25,025 nucleotides of DNA from a virus (IMGVR_UViG_3300037193_002971:1-25025), one strand, 5' to 3'. Shown: positions 791-21,180, numbered from the stretch's first letter. Notes: generated from the sequence alone by a model not told the origin. Translations and numbers: made by a program.

Positions 791-3700
791 ATGGCAGAAC
801 TTGCTGTCGGAACCGAGGAAAACGGCTACCGGTTCGTCGGAGGCGATCCGGCTTCGCCAACCAGCTGGGAGCCGGCGGGCCTGAAGATCGGCACGGAGGA
901 CTCCGGCTTCCGCTTCCGCGGGGGGGACCCTTCCGACGAGGCGAGCTGGGAGCCGGTGCCGGCGAAGAAGGGCGTCCTCGACCGCATCGGCACCGAACTC
1001 GGCCAGCTGCGCGACGAGGCCTTCTCCGGCATCGAGCAGGCGGTGTCGGCCGTGAAGAACGTGAATGCCGCCGGCCAGGCGAAGCGCCTGCAGTCGACGC
1101 AGGAGCAGATCCGCGAACTGGAGCGGCGCGGCCGCGGAGACAGCATCGCGGCGCGCCAGCTGCGCGGCGAGGTGGCCAGCCTGCAGGAGCGCCTGCCCAC
1201 CACGATCGGCACCGCCGCAGAGGCCAATGCGACCGCGCAGCGCGGCTCCGAGATGGTCACCCGGCCGGCCGTGCAGAAGGTGGCGGCCGCCAAGACGCTC
1301 GGCGAGGCCTGGGACGCCTTCAAGGAGGCTCCGTACGACGTGATCGCGGGCGTGACGGCGCAGTCCCTGCCGCAGACGCTGCCGGCCCTGATCGTGGGCG
1401 CCATGGCCGGCCCTGCCGCCGGCGCGGCTGGCATGGGCCTGAGCAGCGGCGCCGTGGAATTCGGCAGTTCGCTGACGGACTTCGCCCGGGAGCAGGGCGT
1501 GAACACCGGTGACGCCAAGGCGCTGGAGGCCTTCTACTCCGACCCGCAGAAGCTGCAGGAGGGCTTGGCCTACGCGGGCAAGCGCGCCGGCATCATCGGC
1601 ACGCTGGATGCCGCTTCCGGCGGCATCGCCGGCAAGACCATCGCGCCTGCCATCAAGCGGCCGCTGGCGCGCCAGGCGGTCAACGTGCCCGCGCAGATGG
1701 GCGTGCAGGCCGCGGCCGGCGCTGCAGGTGAGGCAGGCGCGCAGCTGGCGACGAAGGGCGAGGTCGCCGCGCCCGGCCAGGTGCTGCTGGAAGCGGCGGG
1801 CGAACTGGGCGGCGCGCCGGCGGAAGTGGTGGCGTTCTCCCGCGAGGCGCGAGCGGCACTGCGGCCGCAGCCGAAGCCCGAGGACATCCTGAAGGCACCG
1901 GACGTCGATACGGCCATCCAGACGGCGCAGGAGGTGCTGGCGCTGCCGCCGCCAAGCGCGAACAGCGGAGACACCATCCTGACCACGTCCAGCGGCGAGG
2001 CAGGAACGACCGCCCAGATCGACGCAATGCGCCGGCAGCGCGAGATCCGCGAAGGCGGTAATGCGGGGCTGGGCCGCAATTCGGACATCGTGGACGTGGA
2101 TCCGAAGCCGGCACCGGGCCCAATCGTCAACGATGCCTCAGCGCTGCTGGAGCGCCAAGCTGCCGGCGACGTGCTTCCGTCGATGCTGGAGGCGCGCCGC
2201 ATGCGCACGGAGGCAGCTGACGCGGCGCAAGCTGAAGCGGCGCAGCGCCGGGAAGCCGAACTGGCCGCGATTCCCGAGCTGGCCGCGAAACAGAACACGG
2301 TGCAGGAAGCGCTCCAGCGCGCCGGCGCTGTGGAGGCGCCCACGGCGATGCAGTTGGCAATGCAGCGCGCGCGCGCCATCCCTGCTGCTGCCGAAGCCGC
2401 TGGTGCGCCAGCCGCACCGACGCAGCCAGCGCCGGTGCTCCCCCGGATCGTGGAGCGCACGCCTGAGATGGTCGCGTTGCCGCAGAAGCTCGCCGAGCAG
2501 CGCGTCGCAGCGACAGGCGGCGAGGTGGTGCGCATCAGGAACAAGTCGGGCAAGTTCGCCTTCACCGTCATCCCGAGGACTGCCGATGCGACCCAGCCAA
2601 CCTCAAGTGCCGCGTCCCCCGCGCCTGACCGCGCAGCAGCGACGCCGAGCGCGCCGGCAGAACCTGCCGCCGGACGTGCTGGCAGCGTGGGACCGGCTCC
2701 TGGTGGCGCCGCTGTCGCACCGCCTGCCGCAGTAGGCGAGCCGGCTGCGACGTGGTTTGGGCGCCGCGGCGACGGCTATCTTACGCAGGCGGATGCGGCC
2801 CTTGCGGTGCGTACGCGCGAGCGCAACAACCCGGATCTGCGCTGGGTCGTGGAGCAGATGCCTTCGGGCAAGTTCCGGCTGGCCGGGTACACCCAGGAGC
2901 AGCGGCCGACGGTTACTGCAACAGCAGTGCCGCGCCTACAATCCGATGAAGCAACTCGTGCACCCGATGAAACAGCGCCGCCGCAGACTGCTCGTCAAGA
3001 AGCCATTACCCAGGATCCTGCGCCTGAAGCTGGAAGTTCTCCGGGCCGCGTTCCCTCGACCGCTGAAGCCGGTACTGAAGGCGGCCAATCGGCGTCTGCC
3101 GATGGTCGAAACCGGGACGATCGTGTTCCGCAGGCCGGCCTGGCGGCAGGCGACCTAGCCGCCCAGCGAACCGACCAGGCGGCAGACGCCGATTCGGCGC
3201 AGGCGCGCGGCACCCAGCAGCCAGCGAAGCCGTTGGACCATGGCGAGCTGAACGTCCCCGGCCGGACGAGCCGGATCGACGCGGATCTGGATCGCTTCAA
3301 GGCCGAACAGGCGAAGGCGAAGAAGGCCGAGGCCAAGCAGATCTCCGCGCAGCGCCAGTCCGACAAGACCCGCGCCAAGGACCTGTTCGTCAAGCACTGG
3401 CCGGCCATGAAGGAGCGGATGGGCGCCCGCTTCGGCGAGAAGGCGTTGCGCGACATGCTGGACTCCATGGTCAAGTGGGAGCCGGCCAAGTTCATCGCCA
3501 TGGTGGAGAAGTTCCAGAAGGAACAGGCCGAGCGCGAGAACGACTCCGCGCAAGCGCGTGACACCGCCCAGCGCCGCTCCGACGAGCGCATGCCATCCGG
3601 CCTGACCATGGAGGAGGCGCGGCGCGCCATCCGCCGCATGCGCGGCCCCCGGGCGGGCGACGTCCAGAAGATCGTCAATGACCTGACCGCCGGCTGGAAG

Positions 3701-6700
3701 AACGGCCCGCGGATCCACGTCGTACAAACCGCGGACGACTTGCCTGGCGAGAACCCGTCGAACACCCGCGGCCTCTACGAGCGCGGCGAGATCTGGATTG
3801 TGGCCGGTTCGCTCGAGCACGGCACCCGCGCTGGCATCGCACGAACGCTCGCCCATGAAGCGGTGGCGCACTGGGGATTGCGCAACATGCTGGGCCGCGA
3901 GGCCTGGACCAAGCTGATGAACACGATCCAGCTGGGGATCAAGGCCGGCAACAAACAGCTGCGCGAGATTCAGGCCTATGTGCGCGAAACCTACGTTGAT
4001 GCCGAAGGTAACCTGTACCTGAACGAAGCACAGGAGGCCGACGAGATCGCCGCCATGGCGGTGGAAGACGCGATCGACGACGACGGCAACTTCAAGCCCG
4101 GCTTCGGCTTCCTGAAATCCGTGTGGGCGCAGGTGGCCCAGTTCCTGCGCGACCTGGGCATCAAGGTCGCCTTCAGCAACGCGCAGCTGCAGGGCATGCT
4201 GGTGCTGTCCATGCGGAACATGGAGGCGGGCCGACGCACCGCGGGCGGCGGGCAGCTGGCGGTAGCGGCGGCGCGCGAGGACGGCCGACTGAACGCCCTC
4301 GATGGTGAAGTGGCGGATGACACCCAGGCGACGGGCGCGCCGGAGGAGGACGCGTTCGAAGGCACCCAGCAAGCCCGAAGCACGATCACCGGCATCGCTC
4401 TGCCCAAGACCTGGCAGGCCCCGGACGAGTCGAAGCTGGACGACCTGATCTACACCCTGCAGGACAAGCACGTCGACACCAAGCGCGCGGTGCAGGCGGT
4501 GCGCGACTCGATCGGCGCCATCGCGGACGAGCAGGACCCCTACCTGCAGGAGGAACTGTTCCACGGGCGCGCGGCCAAGTCCACGAAGGACTTCCTGGAT
4601 AAGGAGCTTCGGCCGCTTCTCGTGGACATGCAGGCCCGCGGGGTGGAGCTCTCCGACTTCGAGGAATACCTGCACAACCGGCACGCAGAGCGCCGAAACG
4701 TGCAGGTGGCAAAGGTCAACGCCGGCATGTCCGACGGCGGCTCCGGGATCAAGACCAAGGACGCCCGCGCCTACCTGGCCGGCCTGCCGGCGGGGACGCG
4801 CCGCACCTACGAGATGCTGGCCAAGCGCGTGGATGCCATCACGAAGGCGACGCGCCAGCTGCTGGTCGACTCGGGCCTCGAGAAGCAGGAGACCATCGAT
4901 GCCTGGGATGCCGCCTACGGCGACGAGTACGTGCCGCTCATGCGGGAGGAGATGGACGACGGCCGCGCCGGCCTCGGGCAGGGCTACAGCGTCCGCGGCT
5001 CCGCGTCGAAGCGCGCCATGGGAAGCGACAAGCCGGTGGCCGACATCATCGCCAACATTGCCATGCAGCGCGAGCGCACCATCACCCGCGCGCAGAAGCG
5101 CCGAATCGGTGAGGCCCTGTACGGGCTGGTGCTGAAGGCTCCCAACGATGACTTCTGGATCGCGGTGGACCCCGCGCTGCAGCAGGACCCCAAGCAAGTG
5201 ATGCAGACGCAGCTGCAACTGATCACCATGGGGCTGGATCCGGCGGACGCCGAGAGCATCGCGAAAGAACCGACCCAGCGCTATGTCGACCCGCGCACCA
5301 AGCAGGTGGCCGAGCGCATCAACCCAGCGCTGCGCAGCGCCGACAACGTGCTGGCGGTCCGGGTCAACGGCGATGACAAGTTCGTCTTCTTCAACGCCCG
5401 CGACCCGCGCGCGATGCGCATGGTCACCGCCTTGAAGAACCTGGACGCCGACCAGCTCGGCACGGCCATGGGGTATGTGGCGAAGATGACGCGCTGGTTC
5501 GCCTCGGTGAATACCCAGTTCAACCCGATCTTCGGCATCACCAACCTCACGCGCGACGTCCAGGGCGCGCTGCTGAACCTGACTTCCACTCCGCTGGCTG
5601 CCCACAAGGCGGAAGTGGCAAACCACGTTCTTCCGGCGTTGCGCGGGATCTACATCGACCTGCGCGACCACCGTGCTGGCAAGACGCCAACGTCATCCTG
5701 GGCCCAGCTGTTCGAGGAATTCCAGCGGGAGGGCGGCGCCACCGGCTATCGCGACATGTACGCCAACGCGGCCGAGCGCGCCGACGGGATCGTGTCGGAG
5801 CTGCGTTCGATCAAGAGCGGCCGAGCCTTCAAGCTCGCCAAGGGCGTTTTCGACTGGCTGTCCGACTACAACGAGTCGATGGAAAACGCTGTCCGGGTGT
5901 CGGCCTACAAGGTCGGCGTAGAGCAGGGCCTCACGAAGCAGCAGGCCGCCAGCCTGGCCAAGAACCTGACGGTGAACTTCAACCGCAAGGGCCAGGTGGC
6001 GCTGCAGGCGGGCGCGCTGTACGCCTTCTTCAACGCATCGGCCCAGGGCACTGCGCGCCTCGCGCAGACGCTGTTCAAGGACGGCAAGCTGTCCGCGGCC
6101 GGCCAGAAGATCATCGCCGGCGGCCTGCTGCTGGGGGTGATGCAGGCGCTGTTGCTCGCGGCCGTCGGCTTCGACGAGGACGAGCCGCCCGACTTCGTGC
6201 GGGAGCGCTCCCTGGTGATCCCGATCTCCGGGACGAAGTACATCGCGATTCCGATGCCGCTTGGGTACCACGTCATCCCCAACCTTGGCCGCATCCCGAC
6301 CGAATGGGCGATGTCCGGTTTCAAGAACACGACGAAGCGGATCGCGCAGCTGGTCGGGGTGTTCGTCGACGCGTTCAACCCGATCGGCAATGCCGGCCTG
6401 TCGCTGCAAACGATCGCCCCGACGGTGATCGATCCGCTGGCCGCCCTGGCTGAGAACAAGGACTGGACCGGAAAGCCGATCGCCAAGAAGGACTTCGACG
6501 CGAACCGGCCCACCGCCGGCCACACCCGGGCGAAGGACACGGCAACGCCCTGGGCCAAGATGATCTCCTACGGGGTGAATATCGCCACGGGCGGCACCGA
6601 CTACAAGCCGGGCCTGGCGAGTCCAACGCCGGACCAGATCGACTACCTGATCGGCCAGGTGACCGGCGGCGTCGGCCGCGAAGTGAGCAAGCTGGCGCAG

Positions 6701-7102
6701 TCGGCCAGCGGCGCGATGTCGGGCGAGGACGTGCCGCTGCACAAGATCCCGCTGGTGGGCCGCTTCGTCGGCACCACTGAGGGTCAGGCCGCGGAGGCTG
6801 CGCGCTACTACGACAACCTGCGCGAGATCGGCTCCCACAAGGTGCAGATCGACGGGCTTCGAAAGGACGGCCGCGGCGCCGAGATCAGCGCCTACGTGCG
6901 CGAGAACAGCGCGGCCACCCTGGTGCCGATGGCTACCGCGATCCAGCGAGAGGTTACCGAGCTGCAGCACCGCAAGCGCGACCTGATCAAGAAAGACGCC
7001 CCGCCCGAGCGTGTGAAGCTGGTCGACCAGCAGATCACCAGCAGGATGAAGCTGCTGAACGACCGGGCGCGCAAGCTCGAAAAGGCGGCGGTCGCGCCCT
7101 AG
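791..7102 (+). CDS. Giant internal virion protein with LPD38-type domain (2103 aa)
   Basis: This very long late protein resembles the large polyvalent proteins of phages, thought to be carried in the capsid or ejected with DNA. The ATG at 791 follows AAGG at suitable spacing. Residues 6-29 and 33-56 are a tandem repeat, each with G-T-E, G-G-D-P and S-W-E-P. Residues of about 180-230 are Gly/Ala-rich and hydrophobic. Residues of about 540-890 are Ala/Pro/Gln-rich linker. Around 1022-1029 is H-E-A-V-A-H-W-G, a metallopeptidase-like HExxxH pattern seen in such proteins but not canonical HExxH. From about 1570 the sequence N-P-I-F-G-I-T-N-L-T-R-D fits LPD38. A hydrophobic helix lies near 1775-1795. 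The C-terminus is helical and charged. Assignment to LPD38 is from memory of the family; the enzymatic role is unknown. Confidence 0.85.
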   Translation: MAELAVGTEENGYRFVGGDPASPTSWEPAGLKIGTEDSGFRFRGGDPSDEASWEPVPAKKGVLDRIGTELGQLRDEAFSGIEQAVSAVKNVNAAGQAKRLQSTQEQIRELERRGRGDSIAARQLRGEVASLQERLPTTIGTAAEANATAQRGSEMVTRPAVQKVAAAKTLGEAWDAFKEAPYDVIAGVTAQSLPQTLPALIVGAMAGPAAGAAGMGLSSGAVEFGSSLTDFAREQGVNTGDAKALEAFYSDPQKLQEGLAYAGKRAGIIGTLDAASGGIAGKTIAPAIKRPLARQAVNVPAQMGVQAAAGAAGEAGAQLATKGEVAAPGQVLLEAAGELGGAPAEVVAFSREARAALRPQPKPEDILKAPDVDTAIQTAQEVLALPPPSANSGDTILTTSSGEAGTTAQIDAMRRQREIREGGNAGLGRNSDIVDVDPKPAPGPIVNDASALLERQAAGDVLPSMLEARRMRTEAADAAQAEAAQRREAELAAIPELAAKQNTVQEALQRAGAVEAPTAMQLAMQRARAIPAAAEAAGAPAAPTQPAPVLPRIVERTPEMVALPQKLAEQRVAATGGEVVRIRNKSGKFAFTVIPRTADATQPTSSAASPAPDRAAATPSAPAEPAAGRAGSVGPAPGGAAVAPPAAVGEPAATWFGRRGDGYLTQADAALAVRTRERNNPDLRWVVEQMPSGKFRLAGYTQEQRPTVTATAVPRLQSDEATRAPDETAPPQTARQEAITQDPAPEAGSSPGRVPSTAEAGTEGGQSASADGRNRDDRVPQAGLAAGDLAAQRTDQAADADSAQARGTQQPAKPLDHGELNVPGRTSRIDADLDRFKAEQAKAKKAEAKQISAQRQSDKTRAKDLFVKHWPAMKERMGARFGEKALRDMLDSMVKWEPAKFIAMVEKFQKEQAERENDSAQARDTAQRRSDERMPSGLTMEEARRAIRRMRGPRAGDVQKIVNDLTAGWKNGPRIHVVQTADDLPGENPSNTRGLYERGEIWIVAGSLEHGTRAGIARTLAHEAVAHWGLRNMLGREAWTKLMNTIQLGIKAGNKQLREIQAYVRETYVDAEGNLYLNEAQEADEIAAMAVEDAIDDDGNFKPGFGFLKSVWAQVAQFLRDLGIKVAFSNAQLQGMLVLSMRNMEAGRRTAGGGQLAVAAAREDGRLNALDGEVADDTQATGAPEEDAFEGTQQARSTITGIALPKTWQAPDESKLDDLIYTLQDKHVDTKRAVQAVRDSIGAIADEQDPYLQEELFHGRAAKSTKDFLDKELRPLLVDMQARGVELSDFEEYLHNRHAERRNVQVAKVNAGMSDGGSGIKTKDARAYLAGLPAGTRRTYEMLAKRVDAITKATRQLLVDSGLEKQETIDAWDAAYGDEYVPLMREEMDDGRAGLGQGYSVRGSASKRAMGSDKPVADIIANIAMQRERTITRAQKRRIGEALYGLVLKAPNDDFWIAVDPALQQDPKQVMQTQLQLITMGLDPADAESIAKEPTQRYVDPRTKQVAERINPALRSADNVLAVRVNGDDKFVFFNARDPRAMRMVTALKNLDADQLGTAMGYVAKMTRWFASVNTQFNPIFGITNLTRDVQGALLNLTSTPLAAHKAEVANHVLPALRGIYIDLRDHRAGKTPTSSWAQLFEEFQREGGATGYRDMYANAAERADGIVSELRSIKSGRAFKLAKGVFDWLSDYNESMENAVRVSAYKVGVEQGLTKQQAASLAKNLTVNFNRKGQVALQAGALYAFFNASAQGTARLAQTLFKDGKLSAAGQKIIAGGLLLGVMQALLLAAVGFDEDEPPDFVRERSLVIPISGTKYIAIPMPLGYHVIPNLGRIPTEWAMSGFKNTTKRIAQLVGVFVDAFNPIGNAGLSLQTIAPTVIDPLAALAENKDWTGKPIAKKDFDANRPTAGHTRAKDTATPWAKMISYGVNIATGGTDYKPGLASPTPDQIDYLIGQVTGGVGREVSKLAQSASGAMSGEDVPLHKIPLVGRFVGTTEGQAAEAARYYDNLREIGSHKVQIDGLRKDGRGAEISAYVRENSAATLVPMATAIQREVTELQHRKRDLIKKDAPPERVKLVDQQITSRMKLLNDRARKLEKAAVAP

Positions 7103-16134: not shown

Positions 16135-16270
16135 CTTGGTCCTCCTCTTCGGCCGGCTCGTCCTCCGGCACATGGTTGTTGATCGCGCCGCAGTTCTCGC
16201 ACTCGGTGTGCGTCAGGTCGGTGAGCGGGCCGCGCCAGGTGACGAGGCCTCCGCAGGATTGGCACTGCAT
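16124..16270 (-). CDS. 48-aa zinc ribbon protein
   Basis: Starts M-Q-C-Q-S-C-G-G with a second pair C-E-N-C-G 22 residues later, a classic four-Cys zinc ribbon, then an acidic tail (E-D-E-P-A-E-E-E-D). Its ATG at 16270 shares a base with the upstream TGA, and its 3' end provides the ribosome binding site of the J-domain gene. Likely nucleic-acid or protein binding; nothing more specific can be said. Confidence 0.72.
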   Translation of the reverse strand: MQCQSCGGLVTWRGPLTDLTHTECENCGAINNHVPEDEPAEEEDQVDG

Positions 16271-16785
16271 CAGGCGCCCTCCTGCGTGCTGGGCTTCATG
16301 AACACCATCCAGTGGGTGCCGGCCTTCTTGCCGGACGTGTTGCCGAACAGCGGGCGGTGCGGCGTCAGGGCCAGCACCTCGGCGATCCGAACCTGCGTTT
16401 CGTTCCACTTGAACACCAGCACGCCGTCGGTGGCCAGCACGCGGAAGCACTCCGCGAAGCCCTTGCGTAGGTCCTCCCGCCAGTCATCGGACAGCTTTCC
16501 GTACTTCGCCGCCATCCAGCTTCGCGGCCCGGCGCGGACCAGGTGCGGCGGATCGAACGCCACCAGCCTGAATGTGCCGTCAGCGAAAGGGATGGCGCGG
16601 AAGTCCATCTGCTGGTCGGGCTCGATGCGGAGGACCCGCTTACCACTGGGGTTTCCGTGCGAGCGGTCGGTGACGGTCACGGTTTCGCGTCGGCGATCTC
16701 CGTAGATCACATCCGGGTGCTCGCGGTCGAACCACCACATCCGGCTGCCGCAGCAGGGGTCGAGAACCAGAGGGATCTGCCTCAT
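16270..16785 (-). CDS. SAM-dependent DNA methyltransferase-like protein (171 aa)
   Basis: From the ATG at 16785 the protein begins M-R-Q-I-P-L-V-L-D-P-C-C-G-S-R-M-W-W, a SAM-binding motif I variant. Next come D-V-I-Y-G-D and F-D-P-P-H, the D-P-P-x catalytic-type motif of amino-methylating enzymes. The C-terminal part (R-V-L-A-T-D-G-V-L-V-F-K-W and H-W-M-V-F-M-K) completes the Rossmann sheet. It is short, with no target recognition domain, as in several phage enzymes. Its start overlaps the previous gene by four bases. The substrate, whether DNA base or something else, is not determined by the sequence. Confidence 0.75.
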   Translation of the reverse strand: MRQIPLVLDPCCGSRMWWFDREHPDVIYGDRRRETVTVTDRSHGNPSGKRVLRIEPDQQMDFRAIPFADGTFRLVAFDPPHLVRAGPRSWMAAKYGKLSDDWREDLRKGFAECFRVLATDGVLVFKWNETQVRIAEVLALTPHRPLFGNTSGKKAGTHWMVFMKPSTQEGA

Positions 16786-17240
16786 GCGTCCTCCACTGTG
16801 AACAGGTCCGCCTGCGGGCTCGGCGCCTTCCGCGCCGGGCTCGGTTCGGGCATGCGGTATTGGTCGGCGATGGCCTTGGCCCGCGCGCGCAGCACCACGC
16901 GCACACCGGGCAACGTCACGAGGTCGCGGCGGTTGCCGTGGTAGACCGTCTGCAGCCACGCCGGGCCAGGCAGGGAGTCGTCGTGCCTCGGGTGCCGCAG
17001 AAGCAGGTCGTGGTAGATGGGGTTGTTGATGGCGTAGTACGGCCGGTTCTGCCGCAGCTGCGCCTGCAAGCCGAGGCGCAGCTCCATCGGATCGAAGCCG
17101 CACCGGTCGGACCTCTCGAACCGGCCTCCCAGCTGTAGGCGGCGGATTGCCTGCCGTTCGCGCCAGGTGATGTTGGGCCGCTCGCGGTCAGCCTGCTGCA
17201 CCAGATCCTGGTGCGTTGGTGCCGTGGGCTTGCGTTTCAT
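16782..17240 (-). CDS. Hypothetical early phage protein between two methyltransferases (152 aa)
   Basis: The start M-K-R-K-P-T-A-P-T-H at 17240 overlaps the stop of the cytosine methyltransferase as ATGA, with GAGGCGG just upstream. The protein is basic, with N-I-T-W-R-E-R-Q-A-I near residue 25 and a long Arg-rich helical region, ending in an acidic tail. No catalytic motif or family is recognised. Its place between two methyltransferases hints at a DNA-related role only by association. Confidence 0.65.
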   Translation of the reverse strand: MKRKPTAPTHQDLVQQADRERPNITWRERQAIRRLQLGGRFERSDRCGFDPMELRLGLQAQLRQNRPYYAINNPIYHDLLLRHPRHDDSLPGPAWLQTVYHGNRRDLVTLPGVRVVLRARAKAIADQYRMPEPSPARKAPSPQADLFTVEDA

Positions 17241-18145
17241 GCCGCCTCCCGAATCGCGTTGATCACGTCGCACGCCACCGGCGGGCAGACAGCGTTCCCA
17301 AACATGAAGGTGGCCAGCGTGATGCTGTCCGGGTACAGGTAGCCGTTGGGGAACCCCATGAAGCCGCAGGTTTCGGCCGCCATCAGCATGCGCATCCGGT
17401 CGCCATCTACCACGCCCCAGCGGTTCTTCGTGGTGATCGCGCCGATTGGGCGGCGCAGACAGCGGCCGGTCAGCCCCGATCCGCTCCCGTAGTAGGGCAT
17501 CACGAACCGGGTGCCAAAGCAGGCGCGACCCCTGGCAACGCGAGCGCGGGTCGCCGGCACCTTGTCCGCGACCTGCGTCCAATTGCCGGCGGCGAAGTCG
17601 ATCACATCGGCGGCAGGCACGTGCGAGCGCTGCGGCAGCTTCAGCTCGATCGGGTGCTTCGACCTGGTGCCGACGATGAACAGCCGGCGGCGATGCTGAG
17701 GAACGCCATGGTCCGCGGCGTCCAGGATCATCGGCGCCAGGGCGTAGCCGAGCGCGTGCATCGCGGCGCACCACGCGGGGAACAGGATCCATCGGCTGTA
17801 CTCGGGGACGTTCTCCACCAGCACAACGGGCGGGCGGTGGCACTCCGCGGCGCTAACCACGGCCCACGCGGTGGAGCGCTGGGCGTCATGATGCGGCCGC
17901 TCCTTGCCGCGGGCCCGGCTGTGACCCTGGCAAGCCGGCGACGCCATCAACAGGTCGTGCGCAGGCACGACCGTCCAGTCGGCCTGCTGCAGGTCCTGGC
18001 ACACGTGCTCCGTTTCCGGGTGGTTGTTCGCGTGCACCTGCACGGCCGCAGGCCAGTGGTTGGCGGCCCAGACCACGCGGCAGCCGGCCATCTTGGCGCC
18101 GGTGCTGAAGCCGCCGGCTCCGGCGAACAGGTCGATCGCTCGCAT
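17237..18145 (-). CDS. dcm: C5-cytosine DNA methyltransferase (302 aa)
   Basis: Transfers a methyl group from SAM to carbon 5 of cytosine in DNA. Conserved motifs are in order: motif I D-L-F-A-G-A-G-G-F (5-13), motif IV S-P-A-C-Q with nucleophile Cys72, motif VI E-N-V (111-113), motif VIII Q-H-R-R-R-L-F (150-156) and motif X G-N-A-V (283-286). Motif IV reads P-A-C rather than the usual P-P-C. The length is near the lower end for the family, with a short target-recognition region. No endonuclease gene is adjacent, so it is probably a solitary enzyme protecting phage DNA. The ATG at 18145 shares one base with the TGA of the reverse transcriptase, so it is translationally tied to the DGR. Confidence 0.9.
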   Translation of the reverse strand: MRAIDLFAGAGGFSTGAKMAGCRVVWAANHWPAAVQVHANNHPETEHVCQDLQQADWTVVPAHDLLMASPACQGHSRARGKERPHHDAQRSTAWAVVSAAECHRPPVVLVENVPEYSRWILFPAWCAAMHALGYALAPMILDAADHGVPQHRRRLFIVGTRSKHPIELKLPQRSHVPAADVIDFAAGNWTQVADKVPATRARVARGRACFGTRFVMPYYGSGSGLTGRCLRRPIGAITTKNRWGVVDGDRMRMLMAAETCGFMGFPNGYLYPDSITLATFMFGNAVCPPVACDVINAIREAA

Positions 18146-19521
18146 CAGGAGTTCACTTTCTTGTAGATCTTCGACAGGTCACCAGCCACCACATGCCCGC
18201 GCTTCAGCAGCACGCGCGCGATGGCGGCCTGTTCGTTGTGGCTGTGGCTGGCCTGGCGCACCAGACCGAGGTAGCTGTTCCCCGCCTGGAACACCTCGTC
18301 GGCCGGCATCTGCTGCAGCCGGCGCATTCCGCCGACCAGCGTGCGGCGCCTCGTCGTGCGCCGCCACGGCTTCACGATGTGGCCGACGAAGTCGATGCCG
18401 CGCGCCACCGGCTGCAGGATGGTCTTCGCGTCATTGAGCCGGGCGCCCAGGCGCGCCGGCAGGAATTCCCGGATCCGCGCGTGCGCCGTGTTCAGCCAGC
18501 TCGCGTCGTGGTGCAGCAGCACGAAGTCGTCGACGTAGCGCACGTAGTGGCGCGCGCGCACCTGGTGCTTGCAGAACTGGTCCAGCGCGTCCAGGTGCAC
18601 ATTGGCGAAGAACTGCGACGACAGGTTGCCGATCGGCAGGCCGGTGTTGGCCGGCGCGTTGAACAGGCTCTTGTGCGGCGGCACCTTGGCCAGCAGCTCG
18701 GCGCGGCCGCGCAGTTCCACGTTCTCGCGCGGATCGTGGAAGAGAACCTGGCCGGCCAGCCACAGCCACCAGGGCTCATGGATCTTCCTGGCCAGCTGCT
18801 CGTGCAATACGTTCTTGTCGATCGCGACGAAGAAGTTGGCCAGGTCGCACTTCAGGTAGTGGGCGGGGCGGCTCCAGTTCTCGGTGACGCTGCGCACGCT
18901 GGCCTCGAGCCGGCGCGCCGCGTAGAGCGTGCCGCGGCCTGGGATGCAGGCGCTGCTGCCGGCATCAAAGCTGGTGTGGAAGCGCGCCGCCACGTGGTTG
19001 TACAGGAGGTGGTGCACGATCCGGTCGCGGAAGTCGGCCGCCCACACCTCGCGCGGCTTCGGCCGCGTGATGACGAAACAGATGGAGCGGCCGGGGCGGT
19101 AGGTGCCCGCGGCCAGCTCCTCGAACAGCGCGCAGAGGTTCGCCTCGAGGTGGGCCTCGAATGCGAGGGCGCTGGCGGTGTTGCGCTTGTGCTGGCGGCA
19201 GTCCAGATAGGCCTGCACGAGCGCGGAGAACGAAAAGCTTGGATCTGCGGACGGCGCGGGCACGCGCCTCGAACTTCTTGTTGTTGTTGTTCTGGTTGCC
19301 GTTGTTGAAGTTCTGGTTCCAGGCGTTGTTGCTGGCGTACTGCGTTTGTTCGCGCTATCCACGTCGCCCTGCCGGAGGCCTGCGCCGACCAGCGGGGAAA
19401 CTGCGCCGGACCGGTCCTGCCTGCGGGCAGCGGTATCCGTGATGCGCATGGCGGTGCCCTCGTGAGGCAGCGGCGCGACCAGATTCAATGTGCGCTCGGG
19501 CATGTGGGCCGTGACCGTCAT
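18145..19521 (-). CDS. DGR reverse transcriptase (458 aa in the longest supported form)
   Basis: Copies the template RNA into cDNA with adenine-directed errors. The RT domain covers about residues 95-430: catalytic Asp226 in K-C-D-L-A-N-F-F, I-G-N-L-S-S-Q at 297-303 (the IGxxxSQ form typical of DGR enzymes, in place of QGxxxSP), and Y-V-D-D at 329-332. There is no maturase or endonuclease domain, so it is not a group II intron. The ATG at 19521 overlaps the avd stop as ATGA and is my choice. M25 at 19449, or a GTG inside or just after the TR, are alternatives because residues 1-95 lack family features. Residues 60-92 are the TR read in another frame and form a Thr/Arg-rich stretch. It ends in a one-base overlap with the methyltransferase gene. 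Confidence 0.93.
   Translation of the reverse strand: MTVTAHMPERTLNLVAPLPHEGTAMRITDTAARRQDRSGAVSPLVGAGLRQGDVDSANKRSTPATTPGTRTSTTATRTTTTRSSRRVPAPSADPSFSFSALVQAYLDCRQHKRNTASALAFEAHLEANLCALFEELAAGTYRPGRSICFVITRPKPREVWAADFRDRIVHHLLYNHVAARFHTSFDAGSSACIPGRGTLYAARRLEASVRSVTENWSRPAHYLKCDLANFFVAIDKNVLHEQLARKIHEPWWLWLAGQVLFHDPRENVELRGRAELLAKVPPHKSLFNAPANTGLPIGNLSSQFFANVHLDALDQFCKHQVRARHYVRYVDDFVLLHHDASWLNTAHARIREFLPARLGARLNDAKTILQPVARGIDFVGHIVKPWRRTTRRRTLVGGMRRLQQMPADEVFQAGNSYLGLVRQASHSHNEQAAIARVLLKRGHVVAGDLSKIYKKVNS
19247..19345 (-). repeat. DGR template repeat (TR), 99 bp
   Basis: In the coding direction this is 33 codons, eleven of them AAC, followed by a G+C-rich constant end encoding K-K-F-E-A-R-A-R-A-V-R. 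I count 33 adenines. It is 89% identical to VR1 (11 differences) and 83% to VR2 (17 differences), with differences almost only at adenines. Identity with VR2 runs four bases further, to 19243. It lies between avd and the RT domain, the order known from phage BPP-1, but here inside a frame open to the RT. Confidence 0.96.
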
Positions 19522-19883
19522 GCTGCAGGCGCCTTTTCGCGGGTCTTGGACATCCAGCCATTGGCCTGCTTGCCTATGCTGTCCAGCATCTCCACCGACC
19601 GCGCCCAGGGTTTCGTGGACACGGCGCGCAGGTCCAGCGCAACGCGCAGCCACACGGTGGCGGCTCGCACGTGCGTGAGGATCTGGCCGATGTGTGCCGC
19701 GCGCTGAGCACCCCTGGTGGCGTTTGCCAGCGCCATCAGGTCCAGCATTTCCGAGCAGTGGCTGACGATCTTGTCGCCCACCGTGCGCTTGAAGCCGCGA
19801 GGCATCTGCGCTTGGATGGTGGCGGCGAGACCGAGCAGCTCGCTTCCGGTCCTGTGAATCGGCAGTTGGTGGTGCAGGGCCAT
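19518..19883 (-). CDS. avd: Avd-like accessory variability protein (121 aa)
   Basis: Avd proteins are small, basic four-helix bundles that form a pentamer, bind the template RNA and the reverse transcriptase, and are required for mutagenic homing. This 121-residue protein is all-helical and basic, with helices over about 12-30, 33-55, 60-85 and 90-115 (A-A-T-I-Q-A-Q-M-P-R-G-F-K-R-T-V-G-D-K-I is typical of the first loop). The size matches the family of about 120-130 residues. Position immediately upstream of the TR and RT agrees with BPP-1. The start at 19883 has no Shine-Dalgarno; 17 bases separate it from the stop of the VR2 gene, a stretch occupied by the octamer repeats, so coupled translation is likely. 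Its TGA overlaps the RT ATG. Confidence 0.87.
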   Translation of the reverse strand: MALHHQLPIHRTGSELLGLAATIQAQMPRGFKRTVGDKIVSHCSEMLDLMALANATRGAQRAAHIGQILTHVRAATVWLRVALDLRAVSTKPWARSVEMLDSIGKQANGWMSKTREKAPAA

Positions 19884-19886
19884 TTG

Positions 19887-19910
19887 GAAGGACTAAAGGA
19901 TCAAAGAATC
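19887..19910. repeat. Three tandem degenerate octamers after VR2
   Basis: On the plus strand three consecutive 8-base units of the form (A/G)AAG(G/A)A(C/T)(C/T) lie between VR2 and avd. They include the stop codon of the VR2 gene (19901-19903). A related tract follows VR1 at 20507-20530. The TR has no such tract. Confidence 0.65.
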
Positions 19911-20494
19911 AATCTGCGGACGGCGCGGGCACGCGCCTCGAACTTCTTGCCGCCGTTGCTCTGGGTGCCGTGGAAGAAGCCCTGGAGCCAGGCGCCGTTG
20001 CTGGCGCCCTGCGTACTCGTCAGGTACCACTCCTTCTCGAACAGCTCGGGCACGTTGCACCACAGGAGGCGCGATTCGATCCGCGACGGCAGGTAAAAGT
20101 CGCTGTGGCCATCGATCTCCAGCGCCAGGATCTCGCGGCACAGGTCGCTGCCGGCTTGCGCGAATGCCTTCGTGTTGGCGAGGCCGTCATGGTCGCTGGC
20201 CGCGCCTTCCACCTCGGTACCGTAGGTGCCGATCGCGCGCTTTGTGAAGACGGACTTCGGATCGGTCGCTAGCACCAGGTGGTAGTCCGGCGCGCCGTCG
20301 CGGCCGCGCATCAAGCCGGCGTAGATGCCGCCCTGGCCAGCCCAGTACTCGCCGATGGCCGGCGGCACGGGCTTGCCCGTGGGCGCCGTGGTGATCTCCG
20401 CTTCCGGGGCGCTGCCGAACTCCGCGAGCGCAGAGAGCAACGCTGCGCCGAAGCCGGGCACGCTCAGGTGGATGTTGACGTTCTGGATGTGCAT
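19901..20494 (-). CDS. DGR target 2: DUF1566/C-type-lectin-like variable protein (197 aa)
   Basis: Starts at the ATG at 20494, with AGGAGG four bases further upstream. The N-terminal 120 residues are unrecognised (N-I-H-L-S-V-P-G-F-G). The C-terminal part follows the DUF1566 plan: D-F-Y-L-P-S-R, then E-W-Y-L-T-S-T-Q, then the variable stretch and R-A-R-A-V-R-R. VR2 covers residues 161-193. Compared with the template-encoded protein it differs at codon 3 (Y to G) and at nine of eleven Asn codons (G, L, G, F, H, T, S, G, G). It has no signal peptide or membrane segment, so it acts in the cytoplasm or in virions. It is 27 bases downstream of the other target and 17 upstream of avd. The ligand is unknown. 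Confidence 0.9.
   Translation of the reverse strand: MHIQNVNIHLSVPGFGAALLSALAEFGSAPEAEITTAPTGKPVPPAIGEYWAGQGGIYAGLMRGRDGAPDYHLVLATDPKSVFTKRAIGTYGTEVEGAASDHDGLANTKAFAQAGSDLCREILALEIDGHSDFYLPSRIESRLLWCNVPELFEKEWYLTSTQGASNGAWLQGFFHGTQSNGGKKFEARARAVRRLIL
19916..20014 (-). repeat. DGR variable repeat 2 (VR2), 99 bp
   Basis: Ungapped match to the TR over 33 codons with 17 differences. Sixteen are at template adenines; one is T to G at 20008, the first base of codon 3. The last 33 bases, corresponding to the initiation-of-mutagenic-homing side, are identical to the TR. Identity extends four bases further, to 19912. Confidence 0.96.
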
Positions 20495-20506
20495 TTCCCC
20501 TCCTGA

Positions 20507-20530
20507 AAAGGATTGAAGGATTTAAGGATT
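20507..20530. repeat. Three tandem octamers after VR1
   Basis: Three exact-length 8-base units, each NAAGGATT on the plus strand, start 12 bases after the end of VR1 and contain the stop codon of the VR1 gene (20522-20524). They abut the Shine-Dalgarno of the next gene. The related tract after VR2 is more degenerate. Confidence 0.75.
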
Positions 20531-21136
20531 GAGCTGAATCAAGCGGACGGCGCGGGCACGCGCCTCGAACTTCTTGCTGAGGCTGCCCTGGCTGCCGTCG
20601 TTGAAGTGCTGGCTCCAGGCGTCGTTGCTGGCGTACTGCGTGGAGCTCCAGTACCAGACGGGGTCGAAGGCCTCGGCCCCACCTTCGCGGAAGGCCTCAG
20701 CCGCGGTCTGCGCCGGCAGCTGCTCGGTGTAGGGATAGCCGGCCGGCAGGCTGCTCGGGTTGTCGCCGTCGCGGAAACTGGTGCTGTTCTCGTAGGTGGT
20801 GGGCTTCAGGTAGCGGTAGCCCAGCTCCAGAACGTCGCGCGCCGGGATGCACCAGTCGGTCTTGCCGTTGATGTCCAACCCGCGCGCCCACTGTCCCAGC
20901 GGGCTGCCGGCTTCGGCCATCGCCACGGTGTTGTCCATGCTGTGGAAGCAGCTGGTGGCGTTCGGCACGTCCTTGTAGCTGGGGAGCCAGATCATGGACG
21001 TCTCGCCGAGTGCCTTGGGCGCCCAAACAACGGCGAAGATCTTCTCGCCGCTGCGGATGCGGCCGCCGTAGAAGCCGCCTTCGAAGGGCGTGCCGTGTTC
21101 TGCGGGGACGAGGATGGAAGGGTTGTCGACGTTCAC
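20522..21136 (-). CDS. DGR target 1: DUF1566/C-type-lectin-like variable protein (204 aa, GTG start)
   Basis: I start at the GTG at 21136, which has AGGAG six bases upstream; the open frame runs further but only as shadow of the upstream gene. The protein is a DUF1566 domain: W-C-I-P-A-R-D-V-L-E-L near residue 95, then W-Y-W-S-S-T-Q-Y-A-S and the variable part, ending R-A-R-A-V-R-L-I. VR1 is residues 166-198. Against the template product, nine of eleven Asn codons are changed (D, S, H, D, S, G, S, L, S); Asn6 and Asn14 are kept. These positions are the surface-loop sites of the C-type-lectin fold used by DGR proteins to bind ligands. It has no signal peptide or membrane helix. It is 44 bases after the stop of the preceding gene in the recombination operon. 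Confidence 0.92.
   Translation of the reverse strand: MNVDNPSILVPAEHGTPFEGGFYGGRIRSGEKIFAVVWAPKALGETSMIWLPSYKDVPNATSCFHSMDNTVAMAEAGSPLGQWARGLDINGKTDWCIPARDVLELGYRYLKPTTYENSTSFRDGDNPSSLPAGYPYTEQLPAQTAAEAFREGGAEAFDPVWYWSSTQYASNDAWSQHFNDGSQGSLSKKFEARARAVRLIQLNP
20543..20641 (-). repeat. DGR variable repeat 1 (VR1), 99 bp
   Basis: Ungapped match to the TR over 33 codons with 11 differences, every one at a template adenine (66 non-adenine positions, none changed). The constant 33-base end is identical. Changed codons are 7, 10, 12, 15, 17, 19, 20, 21 and 22. Confidence 0.97.
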
Positions 21137-21180
21137 AGGGTTCTCCTGGTTGGGGTGTGATGTGTTCGTGAAATAGGCGG

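Follow-up and report, generated by a model that had tools for sequence, protein, structure and literature searches.

A phage diversity-generating retroelement of the RT-15 subgroup, with a structured RNA upstream of its template repeat and an octamer array after its diversified repeats

The stretch of DNA analysed here (the window), a 25,025-base sequence that makes up an entire IMG/VR record and has 67% G+C, almost certainly holds a complete diversity-generating retroelement (DGR). We assign it to the DGRs because the differences between its template repeat (TR) and its VRs fall almost wholly at adenines, because an Avd protein is encoded next to them and because the reverse transcriptase (RT) is of the DGR kind by profile, solved relative and phylogenetic tree. 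Within the DGRs it very likely belongs to a distinct RT-15 subgroup, and the carrier is a temperate phage, probably of Burkholderiales.

Our best explanation as a whole, to which we give a probability of about 90%, is an RT-15-subgroup DGR of a temperate phage that would work as follows. A single transcript carrying RT-15 and TR would be the template RNA and usually the RT message too. The RT, together with Avd, would reverse-transcribe TR, placing random bases opposite adenines, and the resulting cDNA would then replace VR. An octamer array would serve as the landing mark that separates VR from TR, which is the job of a hairpin in BPP-1. In this way two small C-lectin proteins, whose genes stand apart from the late structural module, would gain new binding surfaces.

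The cassette and its diversified repeats

The DGR lies on the minus strand and is transcribed in the order target 1, target 2, avd, RT-15 RNA, TR, RT (Table 1). RecT- and RecE-like genes are located upstream, and two DNA methylases and an integrase downstream; temperate phages commonly keep leftward early genes at such a position. The initial annotation had proposed a complete DGR at 19243-21136. It gave no strand. Two targets with VRs, Avd, TR and a DGR-type RT were all found, but the RT gene (18145-19449, or less with a shorter start) is mostly outside that interval. The two adjoining DNA methylase genes downstream of RT occupy 16270-18145 (minus strand), and a methylase near the DGR RT was also seen in the phages Cruim01, Haboob and QDWS. 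On the strand opposite to the DGR, positions 791-7102 (plus strand) hold an ORF of 2,103 aa in which the large polyvalent protein associated domain LPD38 was recognised (E 1.1e-42).

Table 1. Parts of the DGR in the window, with positions counted from its first base
Feature	Position	Strand	Description
Target 1	20522..21139	-	205 aa, C-lectin-like (Lcl_C / DUF1566 type), C-terminal VR; Pfam Lcl_C E 2.4e-7
VR1	20543..20641	-	11 of 99 nt differ from TR, each at a TR adenine
Octamer array 1	20509..20532	-	TCAATCCT TAAATCCT TCAATCCT; score 23.0, the highest on either strand of the window
Target 2	19901..20494	-	197 aa, C-lectin-like, C-terminal VR; phrog_4245 E 2.6e-27
VR2	19912..20014	-	17 mismatches to TR in 103 nt: 16 at TR adenines, 1 elsewhere
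Octamer array 2	19889..19912	-	TTGATTCT TTGATCCT TTAGTCCT; score 22.1, second best in the window
avd	19518..19883	-	121 aa; PHROG Avd protein of DGR E 1.2e-20; NCBIfam DivGenRetAVD E 1e-9
RT-15 RNA (RF03018)	19343..19534	-	between avd and TR; 175.5 bits, gathering score 82
TR	19243..19345	-	11 AAC codons in target frame; from TR/VR alignment and adenine bias
DGR RT	18145..19449	-	434 aa if translated from ATG 19449; PHROG reverse transcriptase 1e-109; IGNLSSQ, YVDD

The adenine bias of the TR/VR mismatches was significant for both repeats (hypergeometric P 1.5e-6 for VR1 and 2.4e-8 for VR2). A 27-nt core at the 3' end of TR and VR, TTCGAGGCGCGTGCCCGCGCCGTCCGC, occurs in exactly three copies in the window and in 0 of 100 shuffles. 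The eleven AAC codons counted earlier in TR were confirmed, and 15^11 = 8.65e12 agrees with the 10^12-10^13 proteins that had been calculated from them. Two AAG codons of TR could also yield TAG stops, and both are unchanged in VR1 and VR2.

For comparison we used 80 related viral loci, 80 bacterial-genome loci (mostly from Burkholderiales and Pseudomonas) and 56 BPP-1-type control loci. TR/VR mismatches in the 80 genome loci numbered 1900 at adenines and 28 elsewhere, totals that lean to adenines because the repeat finder penalised other mismatches. Pairs of close relatives were compared directly. Two loci from different samples (L022 and L023) differ at 1 of 7660 backbone sites and at 0 of 104 TR sites; their VRs have changed at 19 of 39 adenine-facing sites, compared with 1 of 65 sites elsewhere. 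In a further pair (L060 and L061), VR change affected 28 of 70 adenines and 2 of 145 other sites. These near-identical members of the subgroup thus display ongoing adenine-directed VR change, which is what mutagenic retrohoming in nature would produce. No near copy of the window phage was found, and the evidence for activity comes from its relatives alone. The initial annotation had named VRs that are invariant and diverge equally at non-adenine sites in related genomes as evidence against a DGR; the VRs of close relatives differ at adenines and hardly elsewhere.

Additional VRs were seen several kb from RT in seven loci (L027, L023, L031, L033, L048, L064 and L083) and in two isolates (QDWS 44976-45066; Magia 38813-38904), and in some loci one RT has up to four listed targets.

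RT-15 RNA, template repeat and the RT reading frame

The gap between avd and TR is filled by a structured RNA. The RT-15 match in the window covers the full model (positions 1-192 of 192), and among the loci scanned with Rfam RT-15 was present in 12 of 12 viral loci and 14 of 16 genome loci, standing 5' of TR in this subgroup. RT-15 was reportedly defined by Weinberg in 2017. Our literature search on RT-15 (RF03018), with most subscription papers outside its reach, found no earlier account, and a paper on permuted RNAs (PMC10085705) does not mention DGRs.

In five loci (L012, L171, L026, L175 and L051), some of which are one prophage present in two collections, TR lies 0.3-1.2 kb from RT. L171, the sole one of these scanned with Rfam, provides a natural test: RT is 0.8 kb away with an unrelated ORF in between, and RT-15 is still joined to TR, indicating that RT-15 goes with TR and not with RT. 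Divergence at 4-fold sites was 0.14-0.25 across the upstream RNA and TR and 0.41-0.51 directly past TR. Because it is already normal from the end of TR on, we conclude that the RT gene contains no second RNA element, and a hidden spacer RNA 3' of TR is not supported. RT-15 is likely to be part of the template RNA, with RT-15 and TR as one molecule. Pairing of RT-15 with the 3' end of TR, which might have given a clue to priming, was not found (energies -33.1, and -33.7 in shuffles).

The RT gene and TR overlap, and in most loci the RT frame continues through TR. The frame of TR relative to RT is identical in 80 of 83 loci, and the stretch from the end of TR to the RT core comes in many lengths but leaves an equal remainder by three in 62 of 66. 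Over the 105 nt before TR, 61 of 65 loci are open in the RT frame, compared with 4 for each of the remaining frames, which is partly an effect of the conserved RNA sequence. Between the start of TR and the RT core, 17 of 66 loci have no ATG, GTG or TTG. A conserved ATG inside RT-15 corresponds to 19449 in the window, where GAGG precedes it; the alternative starts are GTG 19362 and GTG 19263, and the homologous core begins at about 19215. We favour, with some reservation, an RT start at ATG 19449, within RT-15, with translation reading through TR. Reading through appears to be common and not universal, because in 17 of 70 genome loci a stop interrupts the RT frame between the start of TR and the RT core and because TR is distant in the five loci above. 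Conservation as protein of the extension encoded by RT-15 is likewise not supported, since its codon positions vary almost equally. TR/RT overlap was recorded as a class in 2012 (PMC3521204).

The octamer array and the role of the targets

After each VR of the window, three octamers of the form TYARYCMT stand in tandem; elsewhere in the subgroup there are at times four or five. The third-best separate place in the window scored only 5.2, and array 2 begins where the identity of TR and VR2 ends. VR flanks of the subgroup carry a period-8 signal, with a lag-8 self-match of 0.45 compared with 0.27 in shuffled flanks and 0.20 in BPP-1-type VR flanks. We trained an array model on half of the loci and scored the held-out half, where it matched 93% of VR flanks, 0.5% of shuffles and 0% of both TR flanks and BPP-1-type flanks. 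In the genome set, which is nearly but not wholly independent as a few of its prophages are also among the viral loci, the array was found in 93% of 150 VR flanks and in 0 of 74 TR flanks. A scan of 1.47 million positions gave 196 matches, 179 of them at listed VR ends, and most of the remaining 17 can be seen to be VR ends absent from the repeat finder's list. Arrays apart from listed VRs occur at L034:5356, L040:2737, L035:24, L080:57, L026:3555, L012:3286 and 4455, and L070:4612 and 5317. A recognisable VR 3' block precedes most of these, so a search for the array can reveal VRs and targets overlooked by repeat searches.

A G+C hairpin with a GRNA loop, 4-34 nt past VR, was not found after VR1 or VR2 of the window. 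Such a hairpin was detected in 21 of 124 VR flanks of the subgroup and in 44 of 54 BPP-1-type VR flanks. As TR and VR share an identical 3' end, the element that makes copying one-way probably lies outside this end, and the array is the obvious candidate for it. No earlier description of it was found in the searchable literature on direct repeats with IMH and DGR, with most subscription papers outside reach.

Both targets are predicted to be C-lectin folds. The AlphaFold2 model of target 1 (mean pLDDT 94.5) had the Legionella Lcl C-terminal domain 8q4e as its top Foldseek match (probability 1.00, E 5.5e-3), and the model of target 2 (mean pLDDT 89.4) matched the same domain (E 6.6e-5), so that both models match the Legionella Lcl C-terminal type. 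At the profile level, the proposal of DUF1566/C-type-lectin-like targets held in part: the Lcl_C match of target 1 falls just below the cut-off, and a Pfam profile search with target 2 gave no match. The window targets stop 7-22 nt past VR. In the subgroup, each target consists of one short domain (median length 171 aa); a strongly hydrophobic stretch was present in only 8 of 123.

Judged by position and conservation, the array seems reasonably likely to be a retrohoming landing mark that tells VR from TR. It could instead be an all-frame translation stop, or some other intergenic signal. Consistent with a stop signal, the array sits at the target stop codon, often just ahead of the next gene, and 40% of flanks, compared with 5% of shuffled ones, have a stop in every frame within 35 nt. 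However, the best conserved letters (T1 99%, T8 95%, Y5 and M7) are unnecessary for stops, 37% of units have TC at positions 1-2 and hence no stop there, and other gene gaps are without the array, nearly all matches in the scan being VR ends. Stopping in all frames thus accounts for part of the array pattern and not for its best conserved letters, and we consider it unlikely that this function or another gap signal, and not a landing mark, explains the array. As regards the targets, gene position in relatives lends no support to a tail-fibre role, which comparison with BPP-1 would imply. In the isolate genomes of Magia, Haboob, QDWS and LPPA56, every VR lies in a small ORF on the integrase-recombination side, away from the late structural module, and no VR, extra VRs included, was found in a tail gene. 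We lean slightly towards targets that are not tail fibres but lysogen or early-infection proteins recognising something variable. A serious though less favoured possibility is that they act in the virion as adhesins, at the tail tip or in a fibre, like the BPP-1 target, and are only encoded apart from the tail genes. It fits the C-lectin folds of the models and a large survey in which viral DGR targets are mostly tail proteins (PMC8144416), but the placement of all VRs in small ORFs away from tail genes in the four isolates and the short single-domain build of the targets argue against it.

Relation to BPP-1 and other retroelements

The RT carries the motifs that had been given as IGxxxSQ and YVDD. 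Its best solved chain was 8ub7, a 328-aa reverse transcriptase (E 1.8e-40), which we take to be BPP-1 bRT because the lengths are equal. The PHROG match bears out the earlier call of an Avd-like protein, and its NCBIfam DivGenRetAVD score is below the cut-off of that model. In a maximum-likelihood tree, the window RT falls among DGR RTs and is split from group II introns (support 100/99); no retron was included in this tree, and retrons were excluded by model score instead. The RTs of the subgroup form a separate group (support 81/95).

Weak general RT matches could suggest a retron, a group II intron or a DRT defence system, and the first two had been named beforehand as groupings that would speak against a DGR. 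All curated models scored far under their cut-offs (retron, 36 bits with 235 needed; group II intron RT, 76 with 300 needed; Drt3a, 32 with 200; Drt2, 21 with 390), and the tree position and the presence of Avd with an adenine-biased TR/VR pair point the same way. Profile scores and tree thus place the RT in the DGRs, and on the strength of the tree and the TR/VR pattern we regard these other identities as refuted, with a negligible residual probability. Another alternative is an ordinary BPP-1-type DGR whose differences are noise or annotation artefacts, since gene order (mtd-avd-TR-brt in BPP-1), enzyme family, Avd and adenine-directed change at the C-terminus of a C-lectin target are all shared. 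The initial annotation had likewise seen the BPP-1 plan here; the gene order is the same, but the side of the RNA, the TR-RT overlap and the hairpin after VR all differ. In BPP-1, TR directly adjoins avd and 144 nt with Phage_DGR RNA (RF03022) separate TR from RT, whereas in the window RT-15 fills the avd-TR gap and TR overlaps RT. BPP-1 has one target, in the tail module, and the window has two, outside the tail genes by their position in relatives; where BPP-1 has a GRNA hairpin after VR, the window has the octamer array. These differences recur across the sets. The TR-RT distance was 143-186 nt in 56 of 56 BPP-1-type loci, in contrast to the overlap in the window. Phage_DGR RNA was found in 8 of 8 controls tested (in BPP-1 itself exactly between TR and RT) and RT-15 in 12 of 12 viral loci of the subgroup; the array occurred in 0 of 54 control flanks and most subgroup flanks, with the opposite trend for the hairpin as given above. 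With the separate RT group in the tree, the data contradict an ordinary BPP-1-type DGR, which we consider very improbable.

A DGR as such is a known kind of element, and similar cassettes are partly annotated: the Magia record already names possible DGR targets, and the Cruim01 record names RT-15. Burkholderia phage Magia, Pseudomonas phages Cruim01, Haboob, LPPA56 and SC_8_H2H8_2017 and Shewanella phage QDWS belong to the same subgroup as the RT-15 DGR of the window. Their RTs are 59-66% identical over 94% of the query, and they have the order of the window, with TR overlapping RT and VRs in neighbouring small ORFs. They have diverged in sequence, and in Magia and QDWS a third VR lies at a distance. 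The DGR of Bacteroides phage F2 is similar in its short TR-RT distance (33 nt) and long avd-TR gap, and its RT stands beside the subgroup in the tree on a long branch. Unlike the subgroup, it has a GAAA-loop hairpin after VR, with no octamer array seen and no Rfam match. 'Group 3' of the DiGReF survey (PMC3521204) treats TR/RT overlap as arrangement only, and reading-frame evidence, a 5' RNA or an octamer array was not found in the passages available. In Bacillus phage BalMu-1 (L091:3786-3929), Rfam RT-14 (RF02921) lies between TR and RT, and further 'RT-n' families may therefore be DGR spacer RNAs. The combination of a 5' RNA, TR in the RT frame and an octamer array was not found described in the searchable literature, beyond which most subscription papers lie.

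In BPP-1, the folded TR-RT spacer brings in RT and Avd and also provides the primer (PMC12875486), and a G+C hairpin with a GRNA-type loop just past VR, common to other phage DGRs, is required (PMC3240598). DGR mechanism, RNA priming and target-site recognition are known mostly from BPP-1, where the 3' spacer RNA and the DNA hairpin are essential, and a large group in Burkholderiales and Pseudomonas prophages apparently works without either. We tentatively suggest that this group may represent a second way of DGR retrohoming, with a 5' RNA platform for the 3' spacer, a phased array of octamers, which an Avd oligomer might read, for the DNA hairpin, and phage proteins other than tail fibres as the diversified products. 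An RNA platform 5' of TR in place of the 3' spacer would need a different arrangement of cDNA priming. With its 24 nt the array is a portable candidate signal, open to direct testing, from which a second DGR toolkit for directed evolution might be built. The position of the targets apart from the structural genes also raises the question of what a phage gains from hypermutating proteins that may not be tail fibres.
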